Assembly (NCBI GenBank): GCA_030432875.1 | Contig: JAUILP010000011.1 | Coordinates: 1-64,000 of the forward strand | Origin: Oligoflexia bacterium | GTDB taxonomy: Bacteria; Bdellovibrionota_B; Oligoflexia; Oligoflexales; JAGOVF01 | DNA: 64,000 bases | Direction: 5' to 3' | Shown: positions 2,625-64,000 of the stretch, one piece after another | Position numbering within the stretch: the first letter of the stretch is position 1 | Layout of the letters: each line of letters opens with the position of its first letter | Notes under the pieces: model-generated | Seen by the model: the letters and a program-made list of their open reading frames with translations, nothing else | Databases searched by the model: none | Told to the model about the DNA's origin: nothing | Made by a program: the position numbers and the translations under genes

Positions 2625-5057
2625 ATGTCTTTAAAAATAAGGCGCGCAGCGGTTCTTGGTTCGGGGGTTATGGGATCTCAAATCGCCGCGCTTCTGGCCA
2701 CCTTAGGTGTCCGCGTGCATTTACTTGATCTTGTCACCGAAGATCCCACGACTGAAACCGCATCACATAAAAAATCAGCAAGCCTCAGAAGTCAAATAGC
2801 AATAAAAGCGCGTGATATTTTGCTAAGCACCAGTCCAAGCCCACTTTTTAGTGAGAAAGATCTAGATTTAATTATTCCGGGAAACTTCGAAGATGATATG
2901 GCTGTCATTTCTGAGGTCGACTGGGTTATAGAAGCCGTTACCGAAAAAATAGATATTAAACACAGTATTCATCGACGCATTCAGGAATATATAAAGCCGA
3001 CAGTACCTGTGACCACAAATACCTCAGGTATCAGCCTAGCGGAAATATGCCGTGATTTTCCAAATGAATACCAACAGATGTTTTTTGGTACTCATTTTTT
3101 CAATCCCCCGAGAGCCATGCATCTCCTAGAATTTATTCCAACCACCATGGTAGATATGCGTGTCTTTAATGACCTCAAAGATTGGTGCGAGGATAGGCTC
3201 GGCAAAGGCGTGATTATTGCGCGTGACACTGTAAATTTTATCGCCAATCGCATCGGAGTCTTCAATATCCAAGCGGCTATTCATCATATGACGACGCAAA
3301 ATCTTTCTATTGAAGAAGTTGATCTACTGACCGGAAGACTCGTTGGACGCCCCGGAAGCGCAACTTTTAAAACACTTGATATTGTTGGAATTGATACTTT
3401 TGCTTTAGTAGCACAAAATGTTTACAGCAGGGCTCCGAGCGACCCTTACCGCAACGTTTTCTTAATGCCTTCCTGGGTACAAAATCTCATTAATTCGGGT
3501 AGGCACGGCCATAAAACAGACCATAAAGGTTTTTATAGCAAGCAAATAGACCAACCTGGCGATAAACCACAAACACTAGTTTATTGCAGCGAGCGGGATA
3601 ATTATGCTCCCCCTAGTACTCGGGAAATTCCATGGTTAGCTGAAGCTCAAAAAATTACTACTGTTGGCGAACGGTTAAAATTTATTTTCGGGCAAAATGA
3701 TAAGTTTGCGCAATTTGTTTGGCTTATACTGCGCGATACCTTTAGTTACGCTGCACTTCTTGCAGAAGAAATCGCCGATGGTGATATACTAAGCATTGAT
3801 CAAGGGATGCGTTGGGGATTTAACTGGAAACTGGGTCCTTTTGCTTTGTGGCAAGCGATTGGTTTTGACTATATTTATGAGCGCATGCTGTTTGAAAAAA
3901 CACCTCGCCCACATTGGCTAAAAGCGCAAATTAAATTTTATGAGCCCCATCCTGACGAATCCCTAGAGCCTGATTTACATATAGAGGAGCTTAAAAGCTT
4001 TGATTGCCGCAGTGAAAAACTTTCCGCACCTAAACAGAAAAAGACCTGGGTTTCACTGCCGAAGAACCAAAATAGTCGGGATGCCCGCGTGCTTATATCG
4101 AATGAATCAGCAAGCCTCCTAGATATCGGAGATGAAATAGCTTGTGTTGTTTTTCATTCTAAAATGAACACCCTAAAATCAGACTCGCTTGAAATCATAC
4201 AAAAATCTGTCGCCATGGTAGGCAAGCATTTTCAGGGCTTGGTGGTTGCTAATTATGGCCCCTGCTTCTCCTCCGGTGCAGATTTACAGGTGATTTCTCA
4301 GCTAATTGCTAAAAATAAACTCAGTACCCTTGAAAAAATGATAAGGGAATTTCAAGGCACTTTTTCCCTCCTTAAATATGCCCCTTTTCCTATCGTCGCC
4401 TGCCCTCATGGGCTAACTTTAGGCGGAGGATGTGAACTTATTTTACATACTCAGTTTCACGTAGCTTATGGTGAGCTCAGTGCCGGTCTCGTAGAACCAG
4501 GAGTGGGCCTCATTCCAGCGGGTGGTGGAACAAAAGAGTTAGCGCTCAAAGCTTATGCCCTAAGCAACCAAGGCTTGCACTCAGATCCTTTGCCTTTTTT
4601 AAAAAAAGCTCTAGTCCTCATGCTGGGTGCAACCCCAAGCACCAGTGCTAAATATGCTGAAGCCTCTGGACTGCTTCCAAGAGCAACGCCTATTAGTTTA
4701 TCAAAAAAACATCTCATCACGACCGCGAAAAAAATAATTCATCATGCCGTCCAAATGAATTATATGGCCCCCCAAATCGCCCCAGCCGTAAGGGCGCTGG
4801 GACGAGATGGACAAAATCATTTGCGCTCATTTTTGCAAGAAAATAAGCAACTCCTCAAGCTTTCGCCCTATGACCTTTTTATTGGTGAACAGTTAGCTTA
4901 TGTCCTTTGCGGAGGCGATGTAAAAGAAAATACCTTCCTTTATGAACATGATTTTTTAGCTTTAGAGCGACGTGCTTTTTTAAATCTCTGCGAAAGGCCA
5001 GAAACTCAGGAACGGATAAAATATATGCTACAGGTTGGAAAACCATTAAAAAACTAG
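2625..5057 (+). CDS. FadN-like 3-hydroxyacyl-CoA dehydrogenase / enoyl-CoA hydratase fusion
   Basis: This is a bifunctional beta-oxidation enzyme of about 810 residues. The N-terminal half is a 3-hydroxyacyl-CoA dehydrogenase with a Rossmann loop (GSGVMGSQIA near residue 12) and HFFNPPRAMHLLE. The C-terminal part is a crotonase domain with SSGAD and HGLTLGGGCEL, then the EPGVGLIPAGGGTKE segment. Dehydrogenase first, hydratase last is the order of Bacillus FadN and the reverse of Escherichia coli FadB. No thiolase or acyl-CoA dehydrogenase neighbour is present. I chose the ATG at 2625. An in-frame GTG at 2604 would add 7 residues but has no ribosome binding site. Confidence 0.88.
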   Translation: MSLKIRRAAVLGSGVMGSQIAALLATLGVRVHLLDLVTEDPTTETASHKKSASLRSQIAIKARDILLSTSPSPLFSEKDLDLIIPGNFEDDMAVISEVDWVIEAVTEKIDIKHSIHRRIQEYIKPTVPVTTNTSGISLAEICRDFPNEYQQMFFGTHFFNPPRAMHLLEFIPTTMVDMRVFNDLKDWCEDRLGKGVIIARDTVNFIANRIGVFNIQAAIHHMTTQNLSIEEVDLLTGRLVGRPGSATFKTLDIVGIDTFALVAQNVYSRAPSDPYRNVFLMPSWVQNLINSGRHGHKTDHKGFYSKQIDQPGDKPQTLVYCSERDNYAPPSTREIPWLAEAQKITTVGERLKFIFGQNDKFAQFVWLILRDTFSYAALLAEEIADGDILSIDQGMRWGFNWKLGPFALWQAIGFDYIYERMLFEKTPRPHWLKAQIKFYEPHPDESLEPDLHIEELKSFDCRSEKLSAPKQKKTWVSLPKNQNSRDARVLISNESASLLDIGDEIACVVFHSKMNTLKSDSLEIIQKSVAMVGKHFQGLVVANYGPCFSSGADLQVISQLIAKNKLSTLEKMIREFQGTFSLLKYAPFPIVACPHGLTLGGGCELILHTQFHVAYGELSAGLVEPGVGLIPAGGGTKELALKAYALSNQGLHSDPLPFLKKALVLMLGATPSTSAKYAEASGLLPRATPISLSKKHLITTAKKIIHHAVQMNYMAPQIAPAVRALGRDGQNHLRSFLQENKQLLKLSPYDLFIGEQLAYVLCGGDVKENTFLYEHDFLALERRAFLNLCERPETQERIKYMLQVGKPLKN

Positions 5058-5093
5058 GCAAAGATTTCATTTCTGAGACAGTGAGACGGAGTA

Positions 5094-5888
5094 TTACAGC
5101 TGACTTTTCTCATACTCTATATCTTTTTTACTTTTTTCGGTTTCGATTGGTTTACCATAGGGCAAGGACATCCACCTCTGACTGTCAATTTCTAAAATTT
5201 GGCTCTTTTGGTTCTTTCCGAGTAGCTGCCCCTCAAGGAAAAGCCGTTTTTTACAATTTGAAATCAAATAAAGCTCATGATAGTAAGCAACTACCTTGCC
5301 CTCAAGACCTCGGCAGGCCTTATCGTAGGGGATAATGTCAAAACTGTCTTGAGCAAGCTCATTTTTAAAATAGGCATCTGTATCAGAAGGCATAGGGGGG
5401 CCCGGGACTATGGGCGTAAATTCCGTCCAATTGAGCTGGACTATTTTTTTTTGTGCTACACTTTTTTTCTTTGAGTGACTCTTATAACTCTCCCAGTCTT
5501 TAAAAAGTCTTTTTTTGCATTTTTCAACAACATAAACCTCATTCAAGGTATAGGTAATGTATTTTCCCTCTAGTTCGTGGCACGTTTTTCCTTCTAATTT
5601 TACAGTTAAAACCACTTCATCAGGTAATTTTTTTATAACCTGAGCATCAACATCGATTATTTTCCCGCCCTTAGCTTGAAAACTAAACAAGCTCGCATGA
5701 TCTTCAATATGGACTCTCACACATTTAACCACCTTAAAAATTTCGTCGTAATATGAGATATAATGACCTTCATATTTTTTGCATGTAGCAGCATCCACTT
5801 CACCTGATGCCGCAATGACACGCGTTGGAGCTAACGCAAAAAAAATACTAAAAAAAATAGTGCTATTAAAAAACATGTAAAAAGACAT
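5094..5888 (-). CDS. Secreted protein with three Cys-pair repeats, unknown function
   Basis: The protein has 264 residues with a hydrophobic signal peptide (about 1-27, ending near VIAAS). It contains three copies of a roughly 22-residue unit: C36-C56, C103-C124 and C192-C212. The shared pattern is C-x2-[YL]-E-G-[HK]-x-[IV]-x-Y, then a Glu and hydrophobics, then C; the last two copies continue KKRLF. The paired cysteines suggest one disulfide per unit in the periplasm or outside the cell. The spacers are Lys-rich. The ATG has AAGGA 7 bases upstream. I do not recognise the family. It converges on the fadN-like gene. Confidence 0.75.
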   Translation of the reverse strand: MSFYMFFNSTIFFSIFFALAPTRVIAASGEVDAATCKKYEGHYISYYDEIFKVVKCVRVHIEDHASLFSFQAKGGKIIDVDAQVIKKLPDEVVLTVKLEGKTCHELEGKYITYTLNEVYVVEKCKKRLFKDWESYKSHSKKKSVAQKKIVQLNWTEFTPIVPGPPMPSDTDAYFKNELAQDSFDIIPYDKACRGLEGKVVAYYHELYLISNCKKRLFLEGQLLGKNQKSQILEIDSQRWMSLPYGKPIETEKSKKDIEYEKSQL

Positions 5889-6012
5889 TTGGGATCCTTG
5901 TCCTAAAAAAACACTTAACAGTGATCATCCTACCATACATTCGCTAATTTTTTTATTATCGTAATAAATAACTGAATATTTAATTTTATCTTTTTGGGTT
6001 GGGAAACGGCAA

Positions 6013-6639
6013 TTAAAATAATGTTATGCCCATACTCCCAAGAACCGAAAACACCTCAAAAACTGGTAATCCCACGACATTGGTATAAGATCCTTCTATT
6101 TTTCGGACAATTGTCGCCCCAATTCCCTGAATGGCATAGGACCCAGCTTTATCCATAGGCTCTTTAGTATTAACATAAGCGATAATTTCACTTTTTGTCA
6201 TTTTTCGAAGCCAGACACTGCTTTCTACTGCCTTTGTGACGATCTTAGTTTTTTTTGACCGAGGATCTGAGACAATAACAGTGAACCCTGTAAAAACATT
6301 GTGTTTTTTTCCAGAAATTGCGCTCAACATGGTGACGGCATGCTGACGGGAGGAAGGTTTTTCTAAAATTTGCTTTTTATAAACGACAACGGTATCAGCA
6401 GCGAGAACAATAGTGGGAGATTTGTTACCAGGAGATTCTCCAATTTTGAGCATTTTAGAGCTGATAACACGCTCAGCTTTTTCGCGCGCATTTCTTTTAA
6501 CATACTCTACCGGGGATTCATGCTTTCGTGGACTTTCATGAATATCAGGAATCTTGATGATAAACTTAAGCCCCATATTCATAAGCATCTCTCTACGCCG
6601 AGGCGAAGCGCTCGCAAGGATAAATGTATATTCTTTCAT
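6013..6639 (-). CDS. maf: Maf family nucleoside triphosphate pyrophosphatase
   Basis: Maf proteins hydrolyse non-canonical or house-cleaning nucleoside triphosphates to monophosphates. The 208-residue length fits. The N-terminal LASASPRRREML is the signature phosphate-binding loop. LAADTVV carries the metal-binding Asp, and DKAGSYAIQGIGA followed by SYTNVVGLPV is the conserved C-terminal block. The ATG overlaps the stop of the tsaC-type gene (ATGA), implying translational coupling. It is the last gene of purD - tsaC - maf. Confidence 0.93.
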   Translation of the reverse strand: MKEYTFILASASPRRREMLMNMGLKFIIKIPDIHESPRKHESPVEYVKRNAREKAERVISSKMLKIGESPGNKSPTIVLAADTVVVYKKQILEKPSSRQHAVTMLSAISGKKHNVFTGFTVIVSDPRSKKTKIVTKAVESSVWLRKMTKSEIIAYVNTKEPMDKAGSYAIQGIGATIVRKIEGSYTNVVGLPVFEVFSVLGSMGITLF

Positions 6640-7271
6640 AATGCCTCCAGGTCAAAAGCCCCTTGACGGATAAGCTTGAATGTTCCATTTTCATTTAAGG
6701 AAATAATTGTGGAAGGCTGGGCGGGCGTTGAATTTAAATTAACTAAGCCTTCGCCTCCAGGAATAAAATACTCATTATCTTTCAGATTCGCTTGCAAAAA
6801 GGAACAGGCTTCTTGCCAATTATATATGGGGCTTTCCCCACTAACGTTTACACTCGTTGATGGAAGAGGCACATCTAGCGCACACAGAAGATCATTAAAC
6901 CACTGCTGCGCCGCCGCTAAACGAACAACCCTTAAAGCGATCGTAGAATTTTCATTTTGCTCTGAGCACAATATACTTGGAGCATCAGGTGATGCACGCC
7001 AAATCACGGTTAGGGGCCCCGGCCAATGAGCCATTAGCTTCTGTTTAAATAAAGAGGGAAGAGGCAACCAAAATTTTTCAGCACTTGGTAATGAATGACA
7101 TAAACCCAAAAATTTCTTTTCTGAAGTTCTCCCCTTTAACTTAGTAATTGTTTTTTGCGCTGGTTGTGAATTTGGGTGAAAGCTTAGTCCGGGTATGCCA
7201 TCAGTCGGACAAAGGATAATTTTGCCCTCTTTCAAAGCCTGTAAACAACGTGTAGTAATATCTTCTTGCAT
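6636..7271 (-). CDS. YrdC/Sua5-type L-threonylcarbamoyladenylate synthase
   Basis: This family makes threonylcarbamoyl-AMP from threonine, bicarbonate and ATP for the t6A37 modification of tRNA. The 211-residue product begins with the typical CPTDGIPGLSF. It also has KGRTSEKKFLGL, WPGPLTVIW and a late PSTSVNVSGE segment. It lacks the extra C-terminal Sua5 domain, so it is TsaC-sized. A longer frame back to 7478 exists but would lie inside purD in another frame. The ATG at 7271 sits 10 bases after the purD stop and matches the domain start. Family members not acting in t6A synthesis exist, so the exact role is inferred. Confidence 0.88.
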   Translation of the reverse strand: MQEDITTRCLQALKEGKIILCPTDGIPGLSFHPNSQPAQKTITKLKGRTSEKKFLGLCHSLPSAEKFWLPLPSLFKQKLMAHWPGPLTVIWRASPDAPSILCSEQNENSTIALRVVRLAAAQQWFNDLLCALDVPLPSTSVNVSGESPIYNWQEACSFLQANLKDNEYFIPGGEGLVNLNSTPAQPSTIISLNENGTFKLIRQGAFDLEAL

Positions 7272-7281
7272 AGAATTTTTC

Positions 7282-8598
7282 TTACCGAATATTTTTTGCA
7301 ATATCACGACGGAATACAGCGCCGGGCCAGACATATTTTTCAACAACGGAGTAAGCCTTTGCACGCGCCTCTTCAAAGCTGCTACCAGAAAAAACAACAG
7401 TACAAACTCTGCCCTTTGCGGCAACAAGCTGATCGCCATTTCGCTCGACACCACCAAAAAACACCTTGCCAGCTCCAAAATCCTGATTTAATGCGGGATT
7501 AACTGCACTTTTTTGCTTGGGAGTATTATATGGATAACCCTCTGCTGCCATTACAACTCCCACGGTCACTTTATTTGGAGCCTGTGTCGTTTTTTGGATA
7601 GCCTCATCACCAGCGCCATTGTCTTCCTTCGGCTTTAAAGAATTAAGAATAAGGGAGCCCCAGTCCCTATCATCATGAAAACAAAGGACCTGGGCTTCGG
7701 GGTCACCAAATCTCACGTTAAATTCAATCACTTTTGGACCCTCTAGCGTCCACATCAAGCCAACATAAAGGGTGCCGACATAGTCAATTTTATGCTTAGC
7801 CAAGGTCTTGAGTAACGGGGTCATGATTTGCTGTTCAACAATATTCGTAGCATGAGCTGGTAACCAAGGTACCGGAGTATATGCACCCATACCGCCAGTA
7901 TTAGGCCCTTCATCGCCATCATTTAAACGTTTAAAATCGACGGCAAACCCTAATGGCATACTTTTTTGCCCGGAAACCAAAGCAAAATAGGAACATTCGC
8001 GCCCTATCAAACACTCCTCCAAAATAATGGTTTTAGAGGCCTCAAGCATACTTGGACTTGCAAAATGTTCATGAGCAGCATCTATGTCTGCGATACTTTT
8101 ACAGACAAAAACCCCTTTACCCTGAGCTAAGCCGCTTGCTTTTAAAACCACGGCACCATATTTTTGTACATATTGGTACGCCTGCTCTCGTGGATTATCC
8201 TCGAAACTGATCTCTTGATAATTTGCAGTTGGTATCCCCGCTTCTTTCATAATATTTTTGGCAAAAGCCTTTGATCCCTCAAGTTGAGCCGCTTTTTGCG
8301 ACGGACCCCAAAATAAAATATTCTGGTCACGAAAACATTCTTCAGCGCCTTCCACTAGTGGGGCTTCCGGACCACAAATAACCATGTCAACGCCTAACTC
8401 TTTAGCTTTGACGGCACAATGGGACCATATATTTTCACCGTTTAGGTTTTCTAGGGATAATGAAAAAACTTCTGATCCTTCTGCGCCAAAAACCGGAGAC
8501 TTGGGATACATAAATAACTTTGTTACGATTTTTGATCTTTTTATCTTCCATATCAAGGCGTGTTCACGAGCGCCATTACCTAAAACCAGGATATTCAT
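7282..8598 (-). CDS. purD: Phosphoribosylamine-glycine ligase
   Basis: PurD joins glycine to 5-phosphoribosylamine with ATP, the second step of purine synthesis. The 438-residue length is normal. The N-terminal MNILVLGNGAREHAL is diagnostic. The ATP-grasp part shows VVLKASGLAQGKGVFV, GPNTGGMGAY and the metal site EFNVRFGDPEAQV. GAGKVFFGGVE and the rest of the C-terminal domain follow. The start has GAGGA upstream with good spacing. It leads an operon with tsaC-type and maf genes and is divergent from the receiver/TPR gene across a 203-base gap. Confidence 0.97.
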   Translation of the reverse strand: MNILVLGNGAREHALIWKIKRSKIVTKLFMYPKSPVFGAEGSEVFSLSLENLNGENIWSHCAVKAKELGVDMVICGPEAPLVEGAEECFRDQNILFWGPSQKAAQLEGSKAFAKNIMKEAGIPTANYQEISFEDNPREQAYQYVQKYGAVVLKASGLAQGKGVFVCKSIADIDAAHEHFASPSMLEASKTIILEECLIGRECSYFALVSGQKSMPLGFAVDFKRLNDGDEGPNTGGMGAYTPVPWLPAHATNIVEQQIMTPLLKTLAKHKIDYVGTLYVGLMWTLEGPKVIEFNVRFGDPEAQVLCFHDDRDWGSLILNSLKPKEDNGAGDEAIQKTTQAPNKVTVGVVMAAEGYPYNTPKQKSAVNPALNQDFGAGKVFFGGVERNGDQLVAAKGRVCTVVFSGSSFEEARAKAYSVVEKYVWPGAVFRRDIAKNIR

Positions 8599-36142: not shown

Positions 36143-36949
36143 TTAATCTTCTTCGGAATTTAGTTCCAAAATTTTTGAATTGACAGCTTCAGAGACATAT
36201 TTGTCAAGCAACACTCGCGTGTTGGATTGAATAAATTTGACATCTAAAGTTTCACAGGTGATCATCAAGTGGCTGTTCTTGTATATACCCAAACCCACTA
36301 TTTCCGCTATCGTCCCGATGACTCCATTCTCCGCCAATGATTGGTACTTTCCAGCAAAAAAATCATCTATAACTCTAGAATTCCGCCGCCACTTAATGGT
36401 GCTTTTAATTTCATGCATGACTTCTTGACATCCAGCCAACGGAGCGCATTCTGTTCCCAAGGAAAACATAACCGGAGTAAATGAGGAATCTCCATACTCT
36501 GCCACAAATGTCAGATCATCAACTTTCTCTTCTGTCGACAAGTCAGGTGATTCTGAAATTTGATTGATAACTCTATCTAGGTTATCGAAATTGAACAGGT
36601 TGACTGTTGAATGTAAACTAGTTTTCTTATTTGCCGTTGTATCAAATGCAATTGCGGCAGAGCCAAAATTAAGACCTGCAAACTTTTCTATATGCTTCTC
36701 ACCAGATTCATCAATGAAAACTAAATCTAGTTCCTCTGAACTTCTATTTTCTGAGAGTGTGAGGCTTGAATTTTCACTAATTTTACAATGCAGGTAGTCC
36801 TTTATCTGATCATTATCTCTTAGCGTTTGGTGAGTATCTTCTTGAGCAGATTTGACTTCATTATTAATCCCATTTTTTTTATCAACACTGCAGGCAATTG
36901 CTGTAAAGGCCAGAATTAATGATGATAGTTGAAGTAATAAGATACCCAT
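36143..36949 (-). CDS. Lipoprotein, unknown function
   Basis: The protein has 268 residues with a signal peptide ending in LAFTAIAC (Cys20). A charged linker leads into a beta/alpha domain. Two later cysteines (LGTECAPLAGCQE) and one near the end (LMITCETLD) may form a disulfide. No motif is recognised. The gene is monocistronic, with 193 bases and a terminator between it and the converging gene on the left. Confidence 0.72.
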   Translation of the reverse strand: MGILLLQLSSLILAFTAIACSVDKKNGINNEVKSAQEDTHQTLRDNDQIKDYLHCKISENSSLTLSENRSSEELDLVFIDESGEKHIEKFAGLNFGSAAIAFDTTANKKTSLHSTVNLFNFDNLDRVINQISESPDLSTEEKVDDLTFVAEYGDSSFTPVMFSLGTECAPLAGCQEVMHEIKSTIKWRRNSRVIDDFFAGKYQSLAENGVIGTIAEIVGLGIYKNSHLMITCETLDVKFIQSNTRVLLDKYVSEAVNSKILELNSEED

Positions 36950-37269
36950 GACAGTTCTCCTAAATAGGTTTGGGATTTATGGAATATTCTGTGTCAGAGC
37001 AAAAGTCATGCCACTATATAAGCGCAATAATTATTTACATATACACATTAATTGCCTGCCTACTTTATTGACATTTGCCTGTCCAAACTTCATATTCTGC
37101 AACCAGGGGATGCCCTGAAATTATTCATAGAATTTTCTACAATTTTCCCCATTGGGTGAGCAATCTAGCAAGATTTGTTAGAGTATCTTACCAATAATGC
37201 GCAGTATTCTCGTGTTTGTTTTGGGCAGGGAGGATCATAGCATTATATAATCAAGAAACGGGCAGCGAA
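36950..37269. other. Intergenic region with an orphan plus-strand promoter-like pair
   Basis: 320 bases without a gene. On the plus strand TTGACA (37068-37073) is followed after 17 bases by CATATT (37091-37096), a fair sigma-70 pair. No plus-strand gene follows: transcripts would run antisense into the 38.4 kb lipoprotein gene. It may drive a small RNA or be fortuitous. Confidence 0.4.
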
Positions 37270-58876: not shown

Positions 58877-60247
58877 TTACTGATCTTTGATGTGGTCACT
58901 ACTTGATAAGCCATGCTTGGATAGGAGGCGGTAAATATCGGTACGATACCTACCAGACACTTTTGCCATTTCTGTTACATTACCTCCCGTGAGCTCCATT
59001 AATTGTTTGAGATAATGCCGCTCAAACATCTTTCGGGCTTCGGTCAAATTGACTTGATGGATATTTTGGGGGTTTTGCATAAGATCCACGGAAGGCTCAA
59101 GAAATAAATCCTCTTCCAGTAAGGTGCCTTCTTCACTCAAAACATAAGCCCGCTCTATGACATTGCGTAGTTCCCTAATATTTCCCGGCCAGGCATAGTG
59201 CAAAATTTTATCAAGCACTTTATCGCTAAAGGCATTTAGCGGTTTTCCATATTTTTCTCTTAATTCGTCCACAATGATCGTGATCAAATCTGGGATATCA
59301 TCACTGCGCTCCCTAAGCGCTGGCACATTAACTTCTACGACAGCGATGCGAAAGAATAAATCTTCGCGAAAAACTTTCTTTATCGCATCTTCACGTAAAT
59401 TGTGATGGCTAGCAGAAATCAAACGAAAATCCACCGGAATAAGTTGACTCGAACCCAGTGGCTTGACACTACGTTCTTGCAAAACGCGCAGCAATTTTAC
59501 CTGTAAACCAAGAGGCATATCACCAATTTCATCAAGGAGAAGGCTTCCTCCTTGAGCTTGTTCAAATATACCTTTGTAGTCATTCTTAGCGTCAGTAAAA
59601 GCGCCTTTCTTATACCCGAACAATTCAGATTCTAGGAGCTGTTCAGGGACGGCGGCGCAGTTAACAGCAATAAAAGGTCGTGATCGCCGAACTGATAAAT
59701 CATGAATTGCACGAGCGACAACTTCTTTGCCCGACCCTGATTCACCTTGCAGTAAAACATTGACATCAACCGCAGCGAGTTTTTTTACCACTGTCCAAAG
59801 TTTTTTACTCTTCGAGGACTTGAGTACAAATTTTTTCTTTAAAACTTCTTGCCGCGCGAGTTCGTCTGGAGAGCTCCTCAGGTCCTGGTTATCATTTAGG
59901 CGTTTTTGCACTTGCTCTACGATTTCTTTGGGATCATGACTCTTCGTGAGAAAAGTACTCGCCCCTTTTTCCATCGCAGTGACGGCAAGGCTGACCGTGC
60001 CCTGAGCACTCATGATAATAATTTGAGCATTAGAGTATTCATGAACAATATCAGGAAGGACATCAATCGAAGATTCTTGGCCTAAAAACAGATCGAGGAG
60101 CAAAGCGTCGAAGGTGCGCCTGGCGAGAAGAGGCAAAATTTCTGCGACGCTACTTACCGCGTGGACCGTAAAGCCACTAGCCCTAAGATAGAAGCAGAGA
60201 AGCTCACTGTAAATCGGTTCATCTTCTGCGACAAGGATACTTGCCAT
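58877..60247 (-). CDS. NtrC-family sigma-54-dependent response regulator
   Basis: The protein has 456 residues. The receiver domain (1-120) has VAEDEP acidic residues and the phospho-Asp in ALLLDLFLG, with TKSHD for the Lys. The AAA+ domain (about 145-375) has GESGSGKE (Walker A), LLLDEIGDMP (Walker B) and GAFTDA (Asp219) in place of the usual GAFTGA sigma-54 contact loop. A Fis-type helix-turn-helix ends it (MAKVSGRYRTDIYRLLSKH). It should activate sigma-54 promoters; one lies upstream of its own cluster at 63597. It is the third gene after the receiver and kinase. Confidence 0.93.
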   Translation of the reverse strand: MASILVAEDEPIYSELLCFYLRASGFTVHAVSSVAEILPLLARRTFDALLLDLFLGQESSIDVLPDIVHEYSNAQIIIMSAQGTVSLAVTAMEKGASTFLTKSHDPKEIVEQVQKRLNDNQDLRSSPDELARQEVLKKKFVLKSSKSKKLWTVVKKLAAVDVNVLLQGESGSGKEVVARAIHDLSVRRSRPFIAVNCAAVPEQLLESELFGYKKGAFTDAKNDYKGIFEQAQGGSLLLDEIGDMPLGLQVKLLRVLQERSVKPLGSSQLIPVDFRLISASHHNLREDAIKKVFREDLFFRIAVVEVNVPALRERSDDIPDLITIIVDELREKYGKPLNAFSDKVLDKILHYAWPGNIRELRNVIERAYVLSEEGTLLEEDLFLEPSVDLMQNPQNIHQVNLTEARKMFERHYLKQLMELTGGNVTEMAKVSGRYRTDIYRLLSKHGLSSSDHIKDQ

Positions 60248-60368: not shown

Positions 60369-63038
60369 TTAAACATCACCTCCCATATTATGTGCAATGA
60401 TAGATGCTGTCAATTGTTCAAGCTTACGAGCTCTATCAATAATCACTTCTTCTTTTTGATGATCAAAGATCGCATCTTCGACCAAAGCCGCATCACTGGC
60501 GAGGTTTTCATAACCGCAGGCGCCAGCAACACCCCGTATTTTATGAGACTCTTCCCTAAGAATGGCTAAATTTTTGGTGTCTATTGCTTTTGAAATCAAA
60601 CTGAGACGATCAGAAAGGTTGTGTACAAATTTTTTCTTAATACCCTCGACAATCGGGTTGGCAACCAAAGTTTTTGGCAGTAGCTGATTTTCAGTCTTTT
60701 TCTGCTGCGCTTTAGTGGAATTTGCCAAACTTTTAATGCGCTGGCTTACAATGTGAAAATCAATAGGTTTGACCAAATATTCATCAAACCCGGATTGCAA
60801 ACATCGCTCTTTTTCCTCACGGAGCGCATGGGCGGTGGTGGCTATTATTCCGCCGTTAAAACCATTGGCACGTAAATGTTTAACTGCGGTGTGCCCATCC
60901 ATTTTTGGCATTTGAATATCCATGAGAATAACATCTGGTTTAAACTGCGGGGCTTTTTCCAAAGCATCGTAACCATCAACCGCGACCTGAATTTCTGCCC
61001 CCGCTAAGCCAATAAAGTGGACACATAAATCGCGATTTTCTTCGACATCCTCTACAATCAGAACCTTTATACCCTCCAGATTATCTAACTTTGCGGGACT
61101 TTTATAGGTTGATAACTTTGATTCTATAACGGGTATGTCCGCTAATAGCTCATTTTCATCGATTTTTCCCGGATCGATAGAAACAACAAACATACTCCCC
61201 AAATTTAGGTTTGAAGCAGCTAAAACGATGTCGCCACCCAAGGCTCTGGCTAAATTTCGTGACAGAGCCAACCCAAGACCACTTCCCCCAAAACTTCTTG
61301 CTGTCGTGCTATCTGCTTGTGCAAACGGGAGAAATAAACGAGATTTTCCTTCAGAGGACAGACCAATGCCGGTATCTGAAACGATAAATTGAAGCCGCCC
61401 CGCCCCCTCATCACACTGTACCATCCTTAGTCGCACAAACACATGTCCTGACGGGGTAAATTTAATAGCATTGCTAATGACATTGATGAGTATTTGTTTT
61501 AAGCGCAGCTGATCTGTCTCAATAATTTTAGCCACTGGGGTATCAGCATATATTTTAAAGTTAAGCTTTTTTTCACGGGCCTTTTCCACAACTGTTCCAT
61601 AAACTTCATTGATCAAATCATGGAGATTGACGCGAGATTTTTCAATTTGCAGTTGTCCTGCTTCAATTTTTGAAATATCTAAGATCCCATCGATGAGTTC
61701 TTTCAAATTTCGGGCATTTCTAGCAATTGTATTTAATGATGACTCTATTTCTTCAGGTTTTTGATCAGTCAGAAGAAGCTTATCAATAAAACCCAGTATA
61801 ATAGAAATTGGTGTTCTGATCTCATGACTCATATTGGCAAGAAACTCTGACTTTGCCTTGTTAGCTCTTTCAGCTTCACTGCGGGCCTTTTCAACATCTT
61901 TATCGCGGTTAATACCCTCGGTTAAATCTGTAAACGAAAAAATAGCGCCTTTTTGAAAACCTTCTTCATCAAAGAGCGGCGTAGAATGTAATTTTAATTG
62001 AAGACCATCTGAATATTTATCATTGATTAAGATCATGCGCCTTTCTACCATAGACCGGCTTTGCATGATTTGCGAGAGGATATCTTCTTCATCGCTATCG
62101 CCAGGTTTACTTTCTGCCCTGTTAGCATTTTTTAGATAGCTAAAGCTCTTTTTTAGGCCATTTTCTTCATCCAAAACTCCAAATATATTTTCTGCGCTTT
62201 TATTTTGCAAAATAATCTTTTTTTTCTCATCAACCACAATGATGGCATTGCTTAAACCATAAAGCATTGACTTTAATATCCGTGTTTGCTGACGGAGGGA
62301 CTCCCGCGATAAAGCCAGTTCCGTGTTGCGTTTTCCCAAAAAATCTGTCGCTTTGTTTTGCTCATTTTCTCTAAAAACGACATTGCGTACCATGGGCCTA
62401 AAAAGGAACAAGGCAACTAATATAAGAGTTAAAATAGTTGCCGAATAAAATATTAGGTCCCATTTAGAAAATGTGGAAATAGCTTCATGCCCCACATAGC
62501 TTAAGGTAGAATCGAGAATTTTATGGATTTCTTCTATTTCTAGGTATTTTTTTGTGTTGTGAAAGGCGACTAAATCCCTTGTTTGCTTAAGAGTTGCCTC
62601 ACTGCTTAAAATAACTTGATCTACATTGTCAATAAAAAGCTTTACCTTTTCATTTAGGTCATTAATAGCAAGCCTTAGAATCGGAATATTTTTTTCAAGA
62701 GGAATACTTTTATGAATATCCTCTATATTTTCTTTTTCTCGATTTTGTAAGGTCTTTTTTAAGTGCGCGAGTTCCGAAATAAGATTTGGCTTTATGCGAT
62801 TATGTACTCTTACGTCATCAGTCAATAGCAAACCTTCGACAAGCAGCTCCACTTTTAGTAAGCTTGCTCGCTGCTCATTTATGGTATCAGAGAGGTTCTG
62901 CAAAGCGATCTGCGCGCTAAATTCAGATTGGCGTGAAAGGGTGCGAAATGTCGAAATCACCCCAATAAGTGATAAAGCGAAGACGTACCGCAATGTCATC
63001 TGAAATTTTGGCGATCGCCAAAAAAATGAAAGATTCAT
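60369..63038 (-). CDS. Hybrid sensor histidine kinase with receiver and HPt domains
   Basis: The protein has 889 residues. Two membrane helices (about 16-33 and 196-214) frame a helical periplasmic sensor. A PAS domain follows (about 255-370), then HisKA with NMSHEIRTP, HATPase with VSDTGIGL and GGSGLGLALSR, a receiver with ILMDIQMPKMDGH, and an HPt domain with the phospho-His in ESHKIRGVAG. The full phosphorelay chain is thus present in one protein and may pass phosphate to the NtrC-type regulator. The ATG at 63038 has an AGGTAAG site; a TTG at 63068 is less likely. Confidence 0.93.
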   Translation of the reverse strand: MNLSFFWRSPKFQMTLRYVFALSLIGVISTFRTLSRQSEFSAQIALQNLSDTINEQRASLLKVELLVEGLLLTDDVRVHNRIKPNLISELAHLKKTLQNREKENIEDIHKSIPLEKNIPILRLAINDLNEKVKLFIDNVDQVILSSEATLKQTRDLVAFHNTKKYLEIEEIHKILDSTLSYVGHEAISTFSKWDLIFYSATILTLILVALFLFRPMVRNVVFRENEQNKATDFLGKRNTELALSRESLRQQTRILKSMLYGLSNAIIVVDEKKKIILQNKSAENIFGVLDEENGLKKSFSYLKNANRAESKPGDSDEEDILSQIMQSRSMVERRMILINDKYSDGLQLKLHSTPLFDEEGFQKGAIFSFTDLTEGINRDKDVEKARSEAERANKAKSEFLANMSHEIRTPISIILGFIDKLLLTDQKPEEIESSLNTIARNARNLKELIDGILDISKIEAGQLQIEKSRVNLHDLINEVYGTVVEKAREKKLNFKIYADTPVAKIIETDQLRLKQILINVISNAIKFTPSGHVFVRLRMVQCDEGAGRLQFIVSDTGIGLSSEGKSRLFLPFAQADSTTARSFGGSGLGLALSRNLARALGGDIVLAASNLNLGSMFVVSIDPGKIDENELLADIPVIESKLSTYKSPAKLDNLEGIKVLIVEDVEENRDLCVHFIGLAGAEIQVAVDGYDALEKAPQFKPDVILMDIQMPKMDGHTAVKHLRANGFNGGIIATTAHALREEKERCLQSGFDEYLVKPIDFHIVSQRIKSLANSTKAQQKKTENQLLPKTLVANPIVEGIKKKFVHNLSDRLSLISKAIDTKNLAILREESHKIRGVAGACGYENLASDAALVEDAIFDHQKEEVIIDRARKLEQLTASIIAHNMGGDV

Positions 63039-63085
63039 CGGGAACTTACCTATTTCTAAAAGATCCAATTTGATTAATCAAGAAA

Positions 63086-63553
63086 TCATGCAAAATTGTC
63101 CCTTTTGCGCGACACCTTGCTGTCTCGATTATGAGACACGCCCTTAATTAATTTTTGATGAGATTCTGGGCTCATTAAACGCATTTGTATTGTCGCTATT
63201 ATGTTGGCAAAACCTAATGATTTTGAAATATATTCGATTGTAGGATGATTGACAAGATAAGGTTGAATTCTTTCTTTGCTATAAGCGCTCACTAAATAAA
63301 TAGGAATGTTCCCAAACAAGGCAGAAAGATAATTCACTAAATCTGGCCCCACGTGGGCACCCAGATCAAAATCTATGATCACAACATCATAAGCAGAATT
63401 AGTCGTAAACGCCTCTAGATCAAGAAGTGAAGTGTAAAAATCTAAAGTCATTCCGATAGAATGGGCATAACGACTGAAATAGGTACAAAATTCAGTATCA
63501 TCATCGATAAGTAAAAAACGTCTGCTTTCTTTGGATACAGAAAAGCTGTTCAT
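63086..63553 (-). CDS. Stand-alone receiver (CheY-like) protein
   Basis: The protein has 155 residues. LLIDDDTEF gives the acidic pair and VVIIDFDLG the phospho-Asp. IYLVSAYSK supplies the Ser, and ISKSLG the Lys. There is no output domain, only a basic tail (VSRKRDNF). It may act as a phosphate shuttle or sink for the adjacent kinase. GAGGAG precedes the ATG by 7 bases. It is the first gene behind the sigma-54 promoter. Confidence 0.88.
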   Translation of the reverse strand: MNSFSVSKESRRFLLIDDDTEFCTYFSRYAHSIGMTLDFYTSLLDLEAFTTNSAYDVVIIDFDLGAHVGPDLVNYLSALFGNIPIYLVSAYSKERIQPYLVNHPTIEYISKSLGFANIIATIQMRLMSPESHQKLIKGVSHNRDSKVSRKRDNFA

Positions 63554-63596
63554 AGCATGTCTCCTCAGCTAAATTTTTATTAGTATGCCTTCACGC

Positions 63597-63613
63597 TGCA
63601 ACTTTTATGCCAA
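63597..63613 (-). promoter_or_regulatory. Sigma-54 promoter upstream of the phosphorelay cluster
   Basis: On the minus strand TTGGCATAAAAGTTGCA matches the YTGGCACGrNNNTTGCW consensus: the -24 GG and -12 GC are present at exact spacing, with only the C and G after TGGCA differing. The start would be near 63586, 33 bases before the receiver ATG at 63553. The cluster encodes a sigma-54 activator, so auto-activation is plausible. Confidence 0.72.
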
Positions 63614-63801
63614 TAAATCCTATCGGTTTTGTTCGGGGCGTAATTGCAGGCCAAACACTTCCCTAGGATTCACAACCTGTCAATCTAACAGCTATTTAGG
63701 CTCATATTGGTTGGTAAAAATCTAAAACTGATATATATTAAATAAAAGGTCTCGCACTTAAATTTATTGTTTTATTTTTTATCACGGAAGGTAAAAACCT
63801 T

Positions 63802-64000
63802 ATGCGTTGCAACGCTTTATTCTTAGCTTCTTTTATTCTCTGGGCTGCAGCGTGCGGCTCCTCACAACAGTCCACTGTATCCCCTCCAACTCCCGACAAG
63901 AGCTACCAATTTGTGGGCGATAGCTGTGATACGGGTTCGCATATTTTTTCAGGCACTGACAAACACGAGGTCCTTTTAGAGTATTGCCGCACCTTGCTCA
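63802..64000 (+). CDS. Lipoprotein, N-terminal part only (runs off the right edge)
   Basis: 66 codons are visible. The signal peptide ends in LWAAAC (Cys18), followed by a Ser/Pro-rich linker and a start of a mature domain with DSCDTGSHIF and EYCRTLL. GGAAGG lies 10 bases before the ATG. It is divergent from the phosphorelay cluster. Function unknown. Confidence 0.8.
   Translation, partial: MRCNALFLASFILWAAACGSSQQSTVSPPTPDKSYQFVGDSCDTGSHIFSGTDKHEVLLEYCRTLL

Follow-up and report, generated by a model that had tools for sequence, protein, structure and literature searches.

In the genome of an Oligoflexia bacterium (GenBank assembly GCA_030432875.1), a predicted sigma-54 promoter stands before a gene cluster encoding a stand-alone receiver (RR), a hybrid histidine kinase with an HPt domain and an NtrC-type sigma-54 activator (bEBP). 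The explanation we favour, with moderate confidence, is that this promoter drives the three genes as one operon and that the operon is raised by its own bEBP. The window, i.e., the whole stretch of DNA analysed, comprises 64,000 nucleotides (contig JAUILP010000011.1, positions 1 to 64,000 of the forward strand). In the related loci collected from the same order, a sigma-54 site likewise tends to precede receivers encoded near a bEBP. Only this association, seen within the order, takes the finding beyond routine annotation.

The -24/-12 element, TTGGCATAAAAGTTGCA, lies on the minus strand at 63613-63597 and is an exact fit to TGGCAYRNNNNTTGCW. Its GG is read at 63611-63610 and its GC at 63599-63598 with 10 nt between them, and the element conforms to TGGCAYR-N4-TTGCW with GG and GC 10 nt apart. 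Counting about 12 nt past the GC of the -12 half places the predicted transcription start at 63587-63586 and leaves a leader of 33 nt (63587..63554, minus strand) before the RR start codon, ATG 63553, with GAGGAG at 63566-63561 as a good ribosome site. A consensus search of the minus strand from 63554 to 63803 found no sigma-70-like site. The intergenic region is shared with a divergent gene (63804..64000, plus strand; 905 aa including its continuation on the contig) that encodes HEAT repeats behind a lipoprotein-like start. The initial annotation had proposed an element with exact spacing and TTGGCA/TTGCA halves and a 33-base leader before the receiver gene, and both are borne out. Its wider proposal of a sigma-54 promoter fronting a phosphorelay is well supported by the exact element, the presence of rpoN and the genome-wide excess of such sites. 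Overall, the predicted promoter at 63613-63597 is very probably genuine.

Exact matches of the TGGCAYRNNNNTTGCW type number 9 in the whole 4.0-Mb genome versus 1 for the reversed pattern, and 169 versus 72 when one mismatch is allowed. Within the window, two sites scored 16.9 or more with a weight matrix that is our own approximation and not a published one, whereas 60 Markov resamplings averaged 0.18 such sites and never gave more than 1. Because of these three excesses, the fit of the element is not an artefact of composition. A relaxed one-mismatch search of the window alone would not reach significance (5 matches versus 2.3 expected, a count that 6 of 100 shuffles also reached). Of the nine exact sites, eight precede a gene start or likely start, and the site at L010 is intragenic. 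The genes concerned include the RR cluster, a flgF-type gene (L011), a gene for a secreted-looking protein (L009) and lipoprotein-like genes at L003, L004, L005, L007 (trypsin-like) and L008 (peptidase M23), where "lipoprotein-like" denotes a reading of N-termini made without a signal-peptide tool; at L003 the listed ORF starts just before the site and a later start was assumed. The occurrence of lipoprotein-like genes behind five of the nine exact sites (L003-L005, L007 and L008) hints at a surface regulon. One of them, L005, is the second exact site in the window (36998-37014, minus strand), about 48 bp before a gene at 36143-36949 on the same strand whose lipoprotein-like product of 268 aa has no Pfam match.

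The genome carries two RpoN genes. Besides the usual protein of 508 aa, encoded at L001, there is a compact one of 408 aa (L002:715-1941, G000:C122), which contains each of the three sigma-54 domains and ends in an RpoN-box-like sequence. Among 43 genomes of the order, a close match to the compact protein was found in the window's own genome only. Matches in 40 other genomes were about 30% identical or less, mostly one per genome, as would be expected of ordinary RpoN. Because the close match is confined to one of the 43 genomes, the second RpoN is not tied to the receiver-bEBP module.

The RR gene (63086..63553, minus strand) encodes 155 aa and was assigned by its Pfam domain and by alignment. 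The phosphorylation and catalytic residues D17, D18, D19, D61, S89 and K111 are all kept, and a tail of about 30 aa at the C-terminus matches no Pfam family. The hybrid kinase gene (60369..63068, minus strand) encodes PAS, HisKA, HATPase_c, receiver and HPt domains by Pfam; its start was taken as TTG 63068, and an in-frame ATG at 63038 is also possible. The RR gene ends just 17 bp before this start, and the kinase is therefore probably co-transcribed. The third gene (58877..60247, minus strand), already described as an NtrC-type activator in the initial annotation, is confirmed as such: its product of 456 aa has a receiver, an AAA+ domain with a GAFTDA loop and a Fis-type HTH, and the receiver, Sigma54_activat and HTH_8 domains all score over the Pfam cut-offs. 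It is separated from the kinase gene by 121 bp. A sigma-70-like TTGACA-17-TAATAT (60413-60385, minus strand), matching 10 of 12 positions by consensus only, could allow separate transcription of the bEBP gene. Another sigma-70-like sequence, TTGTCA-17-TATATT, also a consensus match only, lies inside the RR gene at 63227-63255 (minus strand) and points toward the kinase gene.

The sigma-54-contact loop of the window bEBP reads GAFTDA instead of GAFTGA. In a tree of 38 bEBPs, from which the G022 and G034 proteins were left out, the window protein and 14 others form a clade with 100/99 support, drawn from families f1, f5, f6, f8 and f9. In all 15 members the second G is replaced by D (GAFTDA, GSFTDA or GAYTDA). 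The bEBPs of G023, G024, G028, G030 and G031 and the second bEBP of G020 were assigned to the clade by similarity only. The bEBPs that adjoin RRs with sigma-54 sites appear to belong largely to this one clade. GAFTDA-type loops have been listed as a still active variant, with functional bEBPs among their carriers, in the available part of PMC4641369, and NorR G266D has been described as retaining promoter opening (PMC2941729, in part). A dead or exotic activator was rejected, given D in 15 of 15 members and the published variant.

The RR query matched 34 of 56 genomes at E<=0.001, many of the hits being generic receivers, and a profile of 11 RRs matched 33 of 43 genomes at E<=1e-12. Members score about 85-213 bits with this profile, and sequences at about 50-60 bits look generic. 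The scores point to a recognisable receiver subfamily that includes the window RR, its edge blurred by continuous in-between values. In the same genome the subfamily comprises the window RR, C33 and C38. The C33 locus (L096:2345-8509, G000:C33) is a paralogous cluster with an RR (2693-3127), a kinase with receivers and HPt (3256-6057) and a bEBP (6067-7476) that is 42% identical to the window bEBP and 51% identical over the HTH region. No sigma-54 site lies within 300 bp of the C33 RR; a one-mismatch site, TTGGCACGGAGTCTGCT, occurs at 2345-2361, 331 bp upstream of it, and a second, at 7571-7587, precedes an HSP20 gene (8003). Upstream of the first of these sites there is also an inverted repeat of 11 bp, GCGTTAGGAAA...TTTCCTAACGC. 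The third member, C38 (L097:1109-3619), has no sigma-54 site in front of its RR and has an exact one just downstream of it, ahead of a lipoprotein-like gene. Searches of the named relatives' contigs gave only three distant receivers. Footprinting of the window's own site on orthologs is impossible because the nearest relative, G001 of the same family, has no ortholog, with no RR match and, at E<=1e-85, no bEBP match.

Three arrangements recur in other genomes of the order. In g9 (G008, G015, G019, G022, G026 and G034) the genes and sites run bEBP, site, RR, RR, site and a large ORF, which is an OmpA-family gene in both members scanned (G008 and G015). In g10 (G009, G020 and G042) a site lies ahead of the RR, from which the bEBP gene runs divergently. 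The bEBP gene is thus upstream in g9 and divergent in g10, and therefore the site there cannot feed it. In g15 (G023 and G031) the site precedes the upstream partner of the bEBP, which is an Hpt gene in G031, the genome in which this ORF was domain-scanned and on which the call rests. In G020 there is also a second, clade-like bEBP, preceded by a site and by a DUF2171 gene. Two g9 bEBP genes look damaged or shortened: the G008 ORF (L099:7478-8482) is without a receiver and the G034 gene (L118:9857-10834) is split by a TAG. On these sequences, what the relatives have in common is that sigma-54 is predicted to control the stand-alone receiver and not the bEBP.

The pattern was first noticed in the initial loci and counted afterwards in loci L096-L132 (L068 left out), over receivers of 100-215 aa matched by the RR query; "near a bEBP" meant any AAA+ match within three ORFs, of any clade. 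Of 20 RRs near a bEBP, 10 had a same-strand site scoring at least 14 with the approximate matrix in -300..+60 and 2 had one on the opposite strand, compared with 1 of 22 RRs away from a bEBP and 16 of the 447 remaining ORFs that had full flanks. The Fisher values (0.001 versus RRs away from a bEBP and 6e-9 versus other ORFs) overstate the case because the rows are related: the ten positive RRs represent seven distinct site sequences in families f1, f8 and f9, with one sequence common to G015 and G019, one to G022 and G026, and one to G008 and G034. The later loci (G019, G022, G026, G034 and G042) were all added from genera already represented. Six of the ten misses are g9 RRs that follow a first RR. 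The other four are C33, G005 (whose upstream region is truncated by the end of the contig), G006 and the third G034 ORF, which scored 12.7 only.

For 18 of the 27 collected sites, the 200 bases immediately upstream were searched for dyads, and no shared enhancer motif rose above shuffles. In the window, the imperfect dyad GATTGACAGGTTGTGAATC (63667..63685, minus strand), which lies about 53 bp before the element, was considered as a candidate. It is one of three equal-scoring dyads in this upstream stretch, and its only matches in the window are itself and one sequence with 3 mismatches, where 0.94 are expected. As a possible enhancer it is no better than chance, and it has no second close copy in the window. 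In the g9 loci a dyad, GTGGGYGGYGYR...(inverted), lies in the stretch that separates the bEBP gene from the RR, and its two arms change in step. This dyad, at L099:7330-7600, L118:9670-9980 and L113:8500-8990, is a candidate enhancer or RNA hairpin, and it is absent from the window's upstream stretch.

In the explanation that we favour, a signal would cause the kinase to hand phosphate via its own receiver and HPt domain to the bEBP receiver and probably also to the RR. The phosphorylated bEBP would then bind upstream and open the sigma-54 promoter, and its own operon would rise (gain). This scheme supposes one transcript over all three genes and this direction of phosphate flow. bEBPs usually act near their own genes. 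The cluster's own bEBP is the likely activator of the site because its clade repeatedly adjoins sigma-54 sites, because of this local mode of action and because close analogues activate themselves. Positive feedback, as suggested in the initial annotation, stands as plausible in that the site heads an operon containing the bEBP gene, a single transcript being assumed across the 121-bp gap. Simple feedback is weakened by that gap and the sigma-70-like site before the bEBP gene, which make a separate promoter possible, and by the g9 and g10 sites, which miss the bEBP. In g15 and, with one mismatch, at C33, a site does stand ahead of the genes that include the bEBP. The favoured explanation also has against it the negative search for a shared enhancer, the C33 and C38 RRs with no site closely in front, the lack of a G001 ortholog and the ten or more bEBP-type genes that might supply the activator. 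A receiver made upon activation probably tunes the relay as phosphate sink or adaptor, because it is control of the receiver that the relatives share; such control may add a brake (phosphate sink) besides gain.

It is possible, though unlikely, that the sigma-54 promoter is real and served by another bEBP, such as the C33 paralog or a flagellar one, in a cascade without self-regulation. The genome has at least 10 bEBP-type genes, the HTH region of the C33 bEBP is half identical to that of the window bEBP, and the enhancer search gave no assigned site, all of which such a cascade would accommodate, but the repeated adjacency of clade bEBPs to sigma-54 sites is the usual sign of a local target. 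We also regard as doubtful a real promoter whose main role is to produce the receiver as a phosphate sink or adaptor, giving negative feedback or output branching, with the bEBP made from its own sigma-70 promoter. The sites that serve the RR in g9, where the bEBP is upstream, and in g10, where it is divergent, the TTGACA-17-TAATAT before the bEBP gene, the complete catalytic residues of the receiver and the analogue NmpT, proposed as a phospho-sink beside an NtrC-like regulator (PMC6211767, in part), are consistent with this role; the 17-bp RR-kinase gap, with probable co-transcription of the kinase, and the residues past the acidic cluster, which by eye differ between the RR and the bEBP receiver, argue against it. 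A chance match, with the cluster expressed from an unrecognised promoter, is very unlikely, as the one-mismatch count in the window lies within shuffles but the exact sites genome-wide, the position of the element and its recurrence before related RRs speak against it. Improbable, too, is an order-restricted relay module in which the signature target of the GAFTDA-type clade would be a sigma-54-controlled receiver made only on activation. The receiver would drain the HPt domain, so that gain and brake together would give pulses and no latch, and GAFTDA would mean easier activation offset by the brake.

ZraSR is a simple two-component pair and is not known to include an HPt relay or a stand-alone receiver. 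Self-activating bEBP operons are already known, and the cluster joins the ZraSR, Nla28 and NmpRSTU kind. The bEBP of ZraSR is said to autoregulate its own operon (PMC12316311, in part). Nla28S-Nla28 is likewise an autoregulated operon of kinase and bEBP genes that has a sigma-54 promoter; further targets of Nla28 include lipoprotein and envelope genes, its enhancer half-sites are known, a point of difference from the present cluster, and a stand-alone receiver is not mentioned in the available part of the source (PMC9765219). NmpRSTU of Myxococcus xanthus also combines an NtrC-like bEBP, a hybrid kinase and a receiver-only protein at one locus, and NmpR has been described as activating its own promoter via a sigma-54 site (PMC11841059, in part). 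In contrast to the present cluster with its stand-alone receiver and one hybrid kinase carrying receiver and HPt domains, NmpT has two receivers, NmpS has an N-terminal receiver with no HPt mentioned, and there is an extra separate kinase, NmpU, as far as the accessible portions of PMC6211767 and PMC11841059 describe them. VemR of Xanthomonas, compared by partial description, is a receiver-only regulator tied to sigma-54 (RpoN2) and flagellar genes, and it differs in being described as an orphan regulator. A published description of this receiver-bEBP module was not found in the open-licence literature.

The lineage is apparently untreated in the available part of the comparative regulon paper PMC12316311, judging by one name looked up, and its sigma-54 sites have probable envelope and lipoprotein targets. 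A sigma-54-controlled receiver that recurs beside one bEBP clade in three families of one order is a clean, testable circuit design. Such a circuit could reveal whether induced receivers are brakes or output branches.
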